Assembly (NCBI RefSeq): GCF_004375085.3
Contig: NZ_SNAQ03000026.1
Coordinates: 1 to 64,000, forward strand
Direction: 5' to 3'
From: Lewinella sp. W8
GTDB lineage: Bacteria > Bacteroidota > Bacteroidia > Chitinophagales > Saprospiraceae
DNA: 64,000 bases
Shown here: piece after piece, positions 34,182 through 52,068 of the stretch
How positions within the stretch are numbered: the stretch's first letter is position 1
How the letters are laid out: each line of letters starts with the position of its first letter
The notes under the pieces: generated by a model
What the model saw: only the letters and a program-made list of their open reading frames with translations
The model's database searches: none
What the model was told of the DNA's origin: nothing
Program-made: the position numbers and the translations under genes

Positions 34182-34698
34182 GGCTGTAGGATGAAGGATG
34201 GAGGACTTTGGTTTCGGGATAAAACGTTCATCGATTGCAACTCCCTAGAGTGTTCGGACGCCATTTCACTCAGCTACGCCTTCGCGAAACAGGCTTCCGA
34301 CCACCTTTCAACCCTGGTCGGAATAGTAAACTGTGCGGACATTGGCCGGACAGTTTCTGGTCCGAACAGTGGAGTTAATTGTTTAAAGGCCAAGTATTCC
34401 GGAGCTCGTCCGCCCAGGCGCGAGGAACGAACTGACTGGCCGGCCGAGCGGAGGCAACGAGTGCCCCAGTCGGTGGGCTAACCCCTCATTGCTCGCGTTC
34501 CGGCCAACGACCTGGTGTCGCTTTTCCCCGAAAAGCGACCATACCAACCATGAGGATTCCGCTACTCTATGATCTCTAGTCTTCTTTTCCCGGTAAATAT
34601 TGAACCCGCAATCCTTTACCGGTTGGGTTGCCTTTCGGGCTTGTCCGGCTGGCCAGACGGAAAAAGGAAACTCCATTGATGGGCAAAAGAAACCCCAC
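34182..34698. other. Long gap with hairpins, no convincing gene
   Basis: Short frames here have no family resemblance or codon bias. A 9-bp perfect hairpin lies at 34517-34539 (GTCGCTTTT / AAAAGCGAC), and CCGGTAAA / TTTACCGG face each other at 34590-34622. Either could shape the 3' end of the helicase transcript, which terminates towards this gap. Confidence 0.45.
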
Positions 34699-43581: not shown

Positions 43582-44820
43582 TTATTCCTCGTGGATGGAC
43601 GCCTCAATCTGTTGCGCCCGCCAGGCCGGCAGCAGGGAGGCCAGGAAGCCGATGATCAGTACCGTGCCGGCCACCACCGGGAAATCAAGCCAGCGGAAGG
43701 AGATCGGATAGGCCTCCGTCATCATTCCCGGCAGACTGATGAGACCGTAATTTTTCTGCAGAATGTAGAGCCCCGCCGCCAGTAAAAAGCCCACCCCGAT
43801 TCCCAGGCTGCAGAGTAAGAGGCCGACCCGCAGGAAGATGCCACGGATGTCTCGCCGCGTCATGCCCAGGCTCTTGAGGATGGAAATGTCCCGCTTCTTT
43901 TCCAGCACGATCATCCACAGCGCCCCGACCAGGTTGAAGCTGATCAGGATCATCATCAGGCAAACGATCGCGAAGCCGACCCACTTTTCCACCTGCATCA
44001 GTTTCAGGATACTGTTTTCCTGCTGGTAGCGATCCTTGACGGTGAAGTCTGCCCCCATGTACTCCTGGATGCGGTCGTAAGTGTCCTGAATGTCGTAGCC
44101 GGGCGCAAGCCTTATTTCCAACGCGCTGACGATTCCTTCCTCCACCGACAGCAATTCCCGGGCCTCCTCCAGGTCAATCAGGACCGCCTGGTTTTCGAAG
44201 GCTTCCTGGCTGCGGATGATCCCCGCCGGCTGAAAATTTCGGCGGATGTAGGGCGCGCGCCCGGAGGTCAGCATCCCCCCGCCCCGCGGGCGGGGCTTGG
44301 ACATCAGCACCGTCAGTGGAGAGAACTCATTCAAAGGGTCAATGCCCAGGACGATGGAGAGCTGGTTACCGACGATGGCACCGGAGATTTTTCGGCTCGG
44401 CAGGTGCAGGTCATAGCTGCCATCCTGGACCATGGTGTCAATGCCGTTGATCTCCGCATAACGGTGATCAACCCCCTTGACGCGGCCAAACGCCTGCTTG
44501 TCATCGTAGAGAAAGCCGGCCGTTTCCTCCAGCGTCTGGGACACCACCAGAACACCATCCAGGGCGTACAAACCCCGTAAGGTCTCCTCATCCATCTCAA
44601 AGGTTTTGCCTTTGGTGGTGGTGATGCGCACGTCAGGGTTGAGGTTATTGAACAGGCCAAGGAACAGATCCTCAAAACCATTAAATACACTCAACAGCAA
44701 AATCAATGCTGCGGCCCCGATGGCCACGCCGAAAGCCGCAATCAGGGTAATGATGTTGATTGCGTTCGTTGACTTACGGGCAAAGAGGTAGCGCCAGGAA
44801 ATCCGTACCGGAAGGTTCAT
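43582..44820 (-). CDS. LolC/LolE-type ABC permease (lipoprotein release family)
   Basis: The protein has 412 residues. The N-terminal helix and SWRYLFARKSTNAINIITLIA opening match LolC/E. A periplasmic domain of about 215 residues follows, then three C-terminal helices with the FtsX signature (LEKKRDISILKSLGMTRRDI). LolCDE extracts lipoproteins from the inner membrane for transfer by LolA, and a lolA gene is encoded 1 kb away. No LolD ATPase is adjacent. Confidence 0.88.
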   Translation of the reverse strand: MNLPVRISWRYLFARKSTNAINIITLIAAFGVAIGAAALILLLSVFNGFEDLFLGLFNNLNPDVRITTTKGKTFEMDEETLRGLYALDGVLVVSQTLEETAGFLYDDKQAFGRVKGVDHRYAEINGIDTMVQDGSYDLHLPSRKISGAIVGNQLSIVLGIDPLNEFSPLTVLMSKPRPRGGGMLTSGRAPYIRRNFQPAGIIRSQEAFENQAVLIDLEEARELLSVEEGIVSALEIRLAPGYDIQDTYDRIQEYMGADFTVKDRYQQENSILKLMQVEKWVGFAIVCLMMILISFNLVGALWMIVLEKKRDISILKSLGMTRRDIRGIFLRVGLLLCSLGIGVGFLLAAGLYILQKNYGLISLPGMMTEAYPISFRWLDFPVVAGTVLIIGFLASLLPAWRAQQIEASIHEE

Positions 44821-44967
44821 GGAGGTAAAGGTAGTTGATTTGTCCGCTTCCCCACGGGAAGCCGGTGGGTCATTTAGCGAAAAGAAGCTAACGACTATTT
44901 TACCGAAGCGGAACTAAATTTTACCCCTTGCCTCTACTGGCCAGGACGCCAGCACGACCTTTAGTGC

Positions 44968-45111
44968 TAGGCCGTTCCGTGAATTAATCCTTTGGCTCTC
45001 AAGTCCTTGAATTTTTCAGTAGCGGCAAGGCATGCCTTGCCGCTACCATTTGCCCCTCTGAACTGCCGCGATTCCGCAGGAATCGCTTATGAAACCGCAC
45101 GGAAAAGCCTA
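44968..45111 (+). mobile_element. MITE-like element, copy 1
   Basis: The element is 144 bp. Its ends are the imperfect 13-bp inverted repeats 44968-44980 and 45099-45111 (TAGGCnnTTCCGT). Flanking 10-bp direct repeats CCTTTAGTGC (44958-44967 and 45112-45121) abut the ends exactly, the signature of a target duplication. It contains a perfect 28-bp palindrome at 45019-45046 and a GCGATTCC/GGAATCGC hairpin. It has no coding capacity. It is inserted at the 3' end of marR; the duplicated bases regenerate the stop codon. The opposite-facing copy is at 51736-51879. Confidence 0.9.
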
Positions 45112-45114
45112 CCT

Positions 45115-45570
45115 TTAGTGCAGCCGTCCCAGCAACTCATTGAGCTGTTCCACTTCTTCCGGGGTCAGACGCTCACTGATGAGGTGATCCAGCCGGTTGC
45201 GGGTTTTGCCAATGCGTTCGAAGAGTTGCAGACCTTTCGGGGTGATGCGTACCTGGTTGCTCCGGCGATCCACCTGAGAAGGAGTTTTCTGCAGGAGCTG
45301 CTTTTTCTCCAATCTTTCGATCAGACGGCTGGCGTCGGACATCTTGTCGGCCAGCGAACGCCGGACTTCCAGAATGGAGAATGATCGATCTTCCTGTTCG
45401 GCCAAAAACCGCAGGATGGCGTACTGTTTGGGCGTCAAATCAAACGGCTGTAAGAATTGACGGATTCCGTTACTAAGCCAGCTACAGGACTGGAGGAGGT
45501 TATGGCGCAACAGCGTGTAGGGATCGGTGTCCTGCGACGCCGAGGCGAACCTCATACTATGCTTGCTCAT
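45115..45570 (-). CDS. MarR-family transcriptional regulator
   Basis: The protein has 151 residues from MSKHSMRFAS; 23 extra in-frame codons upstream are unlikely. The winged helix has LTPKQYAILRFLAEQEDRSFSILEVRRSLADKMSDASRLIERLEKKQLL, then DRRSNQVRITPKGLQL as the wing. MarR proteins are usually repressors of stress or efflux genes and bind near their own start; no target is evident. The MITE at 44968-45111 sits immediately downstream, with the stop inside the target duplication. Confidence 0.9.
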   Translation of the reverse strand: MSKHSMRFASASQDTDPYTLLRHNLLQSCSWLSNGIRQFLQPFDLTPKQYAILRFLAEQEDRSFSILEVRRSLADKMSDASRLIERLEKKQLLQKTPSQVDRRSNQVRITPKGLQLFERIGKTRNRLDHLISERLTPEEVEQLNELLGRLH

Positions 45571-45859
45571 CGAGAAATGATTAAAAAGCTTGTTGGTTAG
45601 TAATACGCTGAGCTTGGCTAATTCAAAAAAGCAAAACACAAAACTTCAAAAAGCGTGCCAAAATGTTTTAAACGTGTTCTAACAACTGGTTTTATTTAAT
45701 CAATACTCTCGCTGGATTGGTAGGCAAAGAATAAAGTTAGCTTGCAAATTGTTGTACCTACCGCATAAATTTCATCTGGTTTAACGTCCCATTAACGATA
45801 AGGTATTACACCTATTCTGCCCCCGGAGCGTTTAGTGGAGGAACGTAAAGAACGATCCC

Positions 45860-50427: not shown

Positions 50428-51726
50428 ATGGATTCCCTCAAAAAGAAGTTTGCCGAAAAAGCCCTTGCTCTATTTACCGAATTACGCGCCATCAATAAGG
50501 AGCACGGAGAAACCAAATTAGACGAAGTAGTACTTCGGCAAATCACGGGCGGTGCCCGTGGCATCAAGATGATGCTCTGGGAAACCAGTCAGCTGGACGC
50601 CCAGGAGGGCATTCGTTTCCGCGGATACTCCATCCCCGAGATCAAGAAGCTCCTGCCCAGCGGGCCGCAGGGAGAACCCAAGCCGGAAGGCCTGTTCTGG
50701 CTGATGCTTACCGGCGAAATCCCCACCGAAGAGGAAGTCAACGGACTGACCGCCGAATGGCACAAGCGCTCCGAGGTGCCCCAGCAGGTGTTTACCACGC
50801 TGGACAGCATGCCCACGGACACCCACCCCATGACCCAATTTACCATTGGCATCATGGCCATGCAGCCCGAGAGCGTCTTTGACCGGCGTTACGCCGAGGG
50901 CCTGCCCAAGACCGAATACTGGGATGCCGTCTACGAAGACAGCATGAATCTCATCGCCCGCCTTCCCCGCGTAGCGGCCTACATCTATCGCCGGACCTTC
51001 AAGGGAGGAGAACACATCGCCCCCGATCATAGCCTGGACTGGAGCGCCAACTTCGCCCATATGCTCGGCAGTGATGACGAAGATTTCCGCAGCCTGATGC
51101 GCCTCTACCTGACCATTCACGCCGATCACGAGGGCGGTAACGCCTCGGCCCACACCGTTAACCTCGTAGGGTCCACCCTGAGTGATCCCTACCGTTCCTT
51201 TGCCGCGGGCATGAACGCTCTGGCCGGTCCCCTGCACGGTCTGGCCAATCAGGAGGTGATCAAGTGGATCTTTGAGATGATTGACAACCTCGGCACCAAG
51301 ACGCCCACCAAGGAGCAAATTGCCGACTACGTCAACGACACCCTCGCCCAGAAAAAAGTTATTCCCGGATACGGACACGCCGTACTGCGGGAGCCCGATC
51401 CCCGCTTCGTGGCCCAACGCCGCTTCGCCGAACAATACATCAAGGACAGCGAACTCATCGAGACCGTCTGGAAAATCTTTGACGTAGTGCCGCCGATCCT
51501 GCAGGGTCTGGGGAAAGTCAAAAATCCCTGGCCTAACGTTGACGCCCACTCGGGTGCCCTACTGGTGCATTACGGCTTTTCCGAATACAGCTACTACACC
51601 GTACTCTTCGGCGTGAGCCGGGCACTGGGTGTACTGGCGGCCGGAATCTGGAGCCGCGCGCTGGGCATGCCGCTGGAGCGGCCGAAATCCGTCACCAGCG
51701 ACTGGATCAAGCAGCAGCTGAAGTAG
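50428..51726 (+). CDS. gltA: Citrate synthase
   Basis: The protein has 432 residues. Active-site residues are in ADHEGGNASAHTV (His), GYGHAVLREPDPR (His) and NVDAHSGALL (Asp). The N-terminal opening with ARGIKMMLWETSQLDAQEGIRFRGYSIPE looks like the eukaryote-type Si-citrate synthases seen in Bacteroidota. It condenses oxaloacetate and acetyl-CoA into citrate. Monocistronic, with a MITE copy directly downstream. Confidence 0.95.
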   Translation: MDSLKKKFAEKALALFTELRAINKEHGETKLDEVVLRQITGGARGIKMMLWETSQLDAQEGIRFRGYSIPEIKKLLPSGPQGEPKPEGLFWLMLTGEIPTEEEVNGLTAEWHKRSEVPQQVFTTLDSMPTDTHPMTQFTIGIMAMQPESVFDRRYAEGLPKTEYWDAVYEDSMNLIARLPRVAAYIYRRTFKGGEHIAPDHSLDWSANFAHMLGSDDEDFRSLMRLYLTIHADHEGGNASAHTVNLVGSTLSDPYRSFAAGMNALAGPLHGLANQEVIKWIFEMIDNLGTKTPTKEQIADYVNDTLAQKKVIPGYGHAVLREPDPRFVAQRRFAEQYIKDSELIETVWKIFDVVPPILQGLGKVKNPWPNVDAHSGALLVHYGFSEYSYYTVLFGVSRALGVLAAGIWSRALGMPLERPKSVTSDWIKQQLK

Positions 51727-51735
51727 GTCTTTGTA

Positions 51736-51879
51736 TAGGCTGTTCCGTAAGGTTTCATCAGCGATTCCTGCGGAATCGCGGCAGTTCAGAGGGGCAAATG
51801 GTAGCGGCAAGGCATGCCTTGCCGCTACTAGGAAATTCAAAGACTTGATGGCCAAAGGGTTAATTCACGGACCAGCCTA
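51736..51879 (-). mobile_element. MITE-like element, copy 2
   Basis: This 144-bp element has the same length and internal order as copy 1 (44968-45111) but faces the other way. Inverted ends: 51736-51748 and 51867-51879, with the same 28-bp palindrome at 51801-51828. The flanks GGTCTTTGTA (51726-51735) and GGCCTTAGTA (51880-51889) match at 8 of 10, an ageing target duplication. It begins 10 bases past the gltA stop and could supply its terminator hairpin. Confidence 0.85.
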
Positions 51880-52068
51880 GGCCTTAGTACTAGGCTGTTT
51901 ACTGTGGTTTCAGTAGCGGTCCCCCGGGTGAACATTGTTTAGGTCCGAAGGGGAAAAACAGCTCCCGGAAACACGATTATTCCCTTACATTTGGCCGAGA
52001 ATGGAGGGCTGGCCGCTTTCGTGACCAGCCCTCCATCACTTTGCGGAACTAATCAGATAAATTGCCTT

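Follow-up and report, generated by a model that had tools for sequence, protein, structure and literature searches.

A 144-bp MITE at the stop codon of marR in Lewinella sp. W8 represents a new family with a palindromic 10-bp target and a hairpin that receives a second mobile element

Is the 144-bp segment that abuts the end of marR in Lewinella sp. W8 a mobile element and, if so, how does the gene survive its presence? In the window analyzed here (the whole 64,000-nt stretch, positions 1 to 64,000 of contig NZ_SNAQ03000026.1), the segment occupies 44968-45111 and was originally predicted to be a MITE with exact 10-bp target duplications, inverted ends, a perfect 28-bp palindrome and no transposase inside. 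Each of these features was found as described. The 10-mer CCTTTAGTGC abuts the segment on both sides as left (44958-44967) and right (45112-45121) target-site duplication (TSD), and the two ends, TAGGCCGTTCCGTG and CACGGAAAAGCCTA, are complementary at 12 of 14 positions; the left terminal inverted repeat (TIR) lies at 44968-44981 on the plus strand, with the family consensus TAGGCTGTTCCGTG, and the right TIR, which reads TAGGCTTTTCCGTG on the minus strand, at 45098-45111. The palindrome, hereafter SL2, was confirmed at 45019-45046 and assigns this copy to the subfamily with ..AAGGCATGCCTT.., and the ORFs of the 144 bp include no transposase. The original prediction overlooked a second hairpin, SL1 (GCGATTCCGCAGGAATCGC, in short form GCGATTCCnnnGGAATCGC; 45068-45086), the fixed SL1-21-SL2 architecture created by a 21-nt spacer of constant length between the two hairpins (45047-45067), and a second element that inserts at the palindrome in other copies.

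The marR-family regulator gene (45115-45639, minus strand) has an intact C-terminus. It ends in ..CGG CTG CAC TAA, and the right-hand CCTTTAGTGC encloses this stop codon (TTA on the plus strand, TAA on the minus strand); its protein ends in ..LLGRLH*, compared with ..LLxRLK/R* in most congeners. The proposal that marR survives the insertion by virtue of a duplicated target that holds its stop codon was thus borne out, and the same pattern recurs in other copies. Downstream of marR lies a gene for an FtsX/MacB-like permease (43582-44820, minus strand), and this adjacency is conserved in all 17 congeneric loci read (L270-L286). The MITE is present in none of the 17, which are too diverged for an empty site to be delimited at the level of single bases; the marR-ftsX intergenic length after subtraction of the MITE and one TSD (~140 bp) falls within the range of the congeners.

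A genome search for the 144-bp unit and for a full-size IS with the same ends, as proposed in the original prediction, recovered the former but not the latter, for which contigs above about 3 kb were covered. The segment is present in the genome (6.18 Mb, 91 contigs) in 40 or more complete or partial copies, with identities from 100% down to 78%, a lower bound that comes from scoring 40 of 92 candidates. Most copies measure exactly 144 bp between their outer ends, and the match ends at the inverted repeats (TAGGCtgTTCCGTG), most of the best copies being full 1-144 matches. A search with the TIR pattern returned 63 matches in this genome, compared with 11 for a reversed control. The 10-mers flanking full-length copies are identical on average at 8.43 of 10 positions, versus 3.77 when the left flank of one copy was combined with the right flank of another (2000 re-pairings, highest value 4.76). 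At least 7 of the 10 flanking bases agree at the exact predicted offset in 28 of the 41 copies examined, and identity is 4-6/10 in several older copies. The TSD length is constant at 10 bp across independent copies, and the target consensus, cgtYTARacg, is itself palindromic. A second copy in the window lies at 51736-51879 in the opposite orientation; its left TSD, GGTCTTTGTA (51726-51735), overlaps the final base of the stop codon of the citrate synthase gene and is identical at 8 of 10 positions to its right TSD, GGCCTTAGTA (51880-51889). Directly beside this copy, CTAGGCTGTTTACTGTGGTTTCAGTAGCGG at 51890-51919 is a remnant of another MITE end. Elsewhere, a mosaic MITE (L077:411-1028) has a palindrome arm ..GGAAATTT in its left half and a different arm, CATACCTTACCGCCTAC, in its right half with the ~480-bp second element, described below, between them, which suggests recombination between copies.

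The target consensus accounts for the position of the insertion in marR. Since YTAR consists of C or T followed by TAA or TAG, insertions on stop codons are tolerated, the duplication restoring the stop. In about 10 of 34 copies a stop codon falls on the YTAR core, making the marR insertion one of a series for which the target core and tolerance together account. When distances were taken from simple ORF calls, the start of nine copies lay exactly 3 bp past a stop codon, the distance at which TAA or TAG forms the core of the 10-mer, and that of one copy at -3. Stop codons make up 14.5% of the non-coding YTAR sites in the window, so that 10 of 34 copies is a modest excess (P = 0.02); perhaps there is a slight preference for stop codons beyond the core and tolerance.

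The interior of the element is a rigid doublet, SL1 - 21 nt - SL2, which also occurs with quite different arms outside recognizable MITEs. In a set of 20 doublets, 97.5% of cells are paired, and 9 of the 12 pairs in SL2 have changed on both sides; the observed measures were reached by none of 500 shuffles, a result that is not a probability as the sequences are related and the examples were chosen. In the younger subfamily (20 copies), substitutions per site amount to 0.5% in SL2 and 0.6% in the SL1 stem versus 4-6% elsewhere, and paired TSDs differ by 10-12%. In the older subfamily (8 copies), SL2 alone is spared and the SL1 stems decay like the remainder. Such preservation may reflect gene conversion, or selection acting on either the host or the element. 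Self-templated correction of adjacent SL2 arms was not supported, as pairing in split palindromes was not clearly poorer than in unsplit ones (broken outer pairs at 6.7% and 4.5%, respectively). It is possible, if doubtful, that the hairpins act at gene ends as a conserved element, either RNA or protein-binding, with a role in processing, termination or chromosome organization, and that host-level selection maintains this MITE-borne element; such a role would concern the copies after insertion and is compatible with their being MITEs. The compensated changes in SL2, the low stem divergence of the younger subfamily relative to other positions and to the TSDs (~11%), and the location of most copies between tandem or convergent genes would be in keeping with it. 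However, the element matches no Rfam family and contains neither a promoter nor an intrinsic terminator, the restriction of strong matches to 3 of 21 genus genomes argues against an essential host function, and the decay of SL1 stems in the older subfamily is as fast as that of other positions. Upstream of some standalone doublets, a hairpin or half-hairpin around CGGTACCGCTCTG is common to three loci (L078, L081 and L220).

Related families exist in congeners. A covariance model of the doublet gave many matches in the Lewinella sp. W8 genome, 23 in a congener that is 55% complete (G010) and 11 in another (G002), and few or weak matches in the other relatives. The elements of G002 and G010 are symmetric, TIR - SL1 - SL2 - SL1' - TIR, with ends YAGGGTGTTCCg and 10-bp TSDs, some of them exact and some with 1-2 differences (TTATCAGACG/TTATTAGACG, TCTCTTAGCT/TCTCTTAGCC); exact TSDs flank congener subfamilies of 143, 166-167 and 209 bp (TATTTAGGAG, CATTTAAGCA, TTTTTAAGGG, TGTTTAGTCC and CCTCTCGTAG). 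At the loci read in these two genomes (L339-L358), YAGGGTGTTCC-ended subfamilies of 59, 89, 143, 166-167 and 209 bp were seen, some with different interiors. None of the 20 congeners searched yielded the 144-bp form. The family would thus span at least three species, and comparison of these sequences suggests that the branch leading to Lewinella sp. W8 lost one copy of SL1 and expanded.

What moves the element? Searches by TIR pattern recovered no full-size IS from this genome, from the TIR-flanking regions of the two congeners or from TIR matches in 120 relatives; TIR pairs spaced as in an IS were nowhere convincing, and in flanks of up to ~3 kb convincing paired ends were confined to elements just 59-209 bp long. 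A multi-copy IS collapsed into contigs of ~2.5 kb or shorter could have escaped the search. Based on the 10-bp TSD and the 5'-YA ends, the mobilizer would most likely be of the IS4-family type. The MITE shows two marks by which that family is recognized, a TSD roughly one helix turn long and 5'-NA ends, and its YA.. ends, with T as the ninth base, agree with those of IS4Sa, for which CA------T ends and 8-10 bp repeats have been described in a family with TSDs of ~10 bp (PMC2266710). The ends of the congener elements, CAGGGTGTT.., fit CA------T (PMC2266710); in contrast, those of the window species start with TA rather than CA, and no transposase is linked to the MITE. A single IS4-type (YREK) transposase was found in the genome (PF01609, C91:161214), and it was rejected as the mobilizer, as its best candidate ends, CATTAAGC.. 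/ CATTCAGC.., are not TAGGC. We take an ISAs1-type transposase to be an alternative mobilizer.

Alternatively, the unit could be a REP/BIME-like palindrome pair moved in single-stranded form by a RAYT (Y1 tyrosine transposase), with the TIRs and TSDs being secondary. SL2 starts with GTAG, as tagged REPs do (PMC3733652), the doublets lacking recognizable MITE ends would fit such a pair, and seven Y1_Tnp proteins are encoded in the genome. Like REPIN or BIME doublets, the hairpins are GTAG-initial palindromes in pairs, intergenic and downstream of genes (PMC3733652). We nevertheless consider this origin very improbable: the SL1/SL2 motif is present within 1.5 kb of none of the seven Y1_Tnp genes, one of which stands amid another REP family; exact 10-bp duplications, found in many copies, are not expected of RAYT/IS200-type transfer; and the GTAG tag of REPs, described as unpaired (PMC3733652), is here part of the SL2 stem. 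The MITE differs from such doublets in its 10-bp TSDs, its TIRs, the paired GTAG and the lack of a RAYT linked to the hairpin pair, and a RAYT was discarded as mobilizer after no Y1 transposase gene was seen to be flanked by the same hairpins. A palindrome pattern search across genome contigs gave mostly unrelated cyanobacterial and chance matches; among the former, GTAGCGGCA-N10-TGCCGCTAC palindromes are repeated many times in contigs of Microseira wollei and other cyanobacteria (L094-L172) and are perhaps GTAG-type REPs. Finally, a coincidental inverted repeat beside a chance 10-bp repeat, which has nothing in its favor beyond the view of a single copy, is practically inconceivable, since the architecture recurs with matching ends and TSDs at 40 or more places in the genome.

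Taken as a whole, the observations are very probably best explained by a MITE copy that is mobilized in trans by a DDE transposase and has a structured SL1-SL2 interior that serves as the landing site of a second element. Copy number, end-to-end matches, TSDs in many independent copies, the common target consensus and the parallel families of congeners all argue for a MITE. It would be a transposase-less DNA transposon moved by a cut-and-paste enzyme whose cut is staggered by 10 bp around cgtYTARacg, and insertion on a stop codon would return the stop to the gene through the duplication. Its structured cargo, SL1 - 21 nt - SL2, may descend from a symmetric ancestor, TIR-SL1-SL2-SL1-TIR, of the kind still present in two congeners. 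The family is new within a known kind of element: like other bacterial MITEs it is short and non-coding, has TIRs and TSDs, and exists in many intergenic copies with no transposase, but it differs from them in that no parental IS was found, in its fixed two-hairpin cargo with compensated arms, and in a hairpin that hosts another element. What adds to its interest is that its target falls on stop codons, that its hairpins are preserved and that a second element is nested in it. The 10-bp palindromic target is of unusual clarity and coincides with stop codons at no cost to the genes, and the family's near-substitution-free hairpins beside drifted TSDs make selection on, or homogenization of, the structure of a selfish element testable. 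The docking at a palindrome of an element whose ends match those of an IS110-type and probably RNA-guided transposon offers a natural system in which to study IS110 derivatives that lack a transposase, as well as the nesting of mobile DNA.

The second element is non-coding, ~440-485 bp long, and splits SL2 at its center in several MITE copies. Counting MITE copies and standalone doublets together, it is present at about 15 places (L031-L035, L071, L073 and L075-L082; for example, C1:96276-96905), in both orientations, and is mostly flanked by 4-bp direct repeats of the palindrome center (CATG, once ATTT, and CATG/CATA at one site). Its ends of ~25 bp, TGTgGGwTrGCryArAGTTrTAmc, are also found on both sides of a 2368-bp element (C11:564007-566374; L227:1508-3875) that sits in a split MITE palindrome with AATT on both sides and encodes an IS110-family transposase (NF033542, E = 4e-68). 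This transposase has no match in the genome other than itself, and no relatives of the protein were found in viral contigs. Judging from the shared ends, the 2368-bp element is likely parental to the ~480-bp one, a relationship that falls short of proof because the two are unrelated beyond those ends; the IS110 gene itself could be nested in the 2368-bp element.

Elements of the IS110/IS1111 group are known to insert in REP palindromes, for example ISPa11 and ISPpu9 (PMC1525189, PMC11187229), and are guided by RNA (PMC11187229; see also PMC11208160 and PMC11208158). The second element resembles these in its position at the center of a REP-like palindrome and in the same-ended 2.37-kb element with an IS110-family transposase; it differs in that its common form is non-coding, ~460-485 bp long, with ~25-bp inverted ends and in both orientations. 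We tentatively suggest, as a rather unlikely scenario, that the ~460-485-bp form derives from an IS110 element, lacks a transposase, provides or makes use of a guide RNA and is directed in trans to REP-like palindromes, with the MITEs acting as mobile landing pads and both travelling as nested units. The ~480-bp element holds two hairpins that are also arrayed, in BIME-like fashion, on either side of a RAYT-like gene (C1:168-171 kb), and these constitute a third layer of nesting. In that array (C1:168.2-171.1 kb; L089:680-3560), the RAYT-like Y1 transposase gene lies amid alternating hairpins of the types GTTTCC..GGAAAC and GTCGCC..GGCGAC. The same hairpin types build a tandem array of ~157-bp units adjoining a tRNA gene (C33:11.8-12.6 kb; L088:790-1560), and a hairpin of the RAYT-associated type, GTGTCGCTTTTCCCCGAAAAGCGACCA, lies in the window at 34513-34546.
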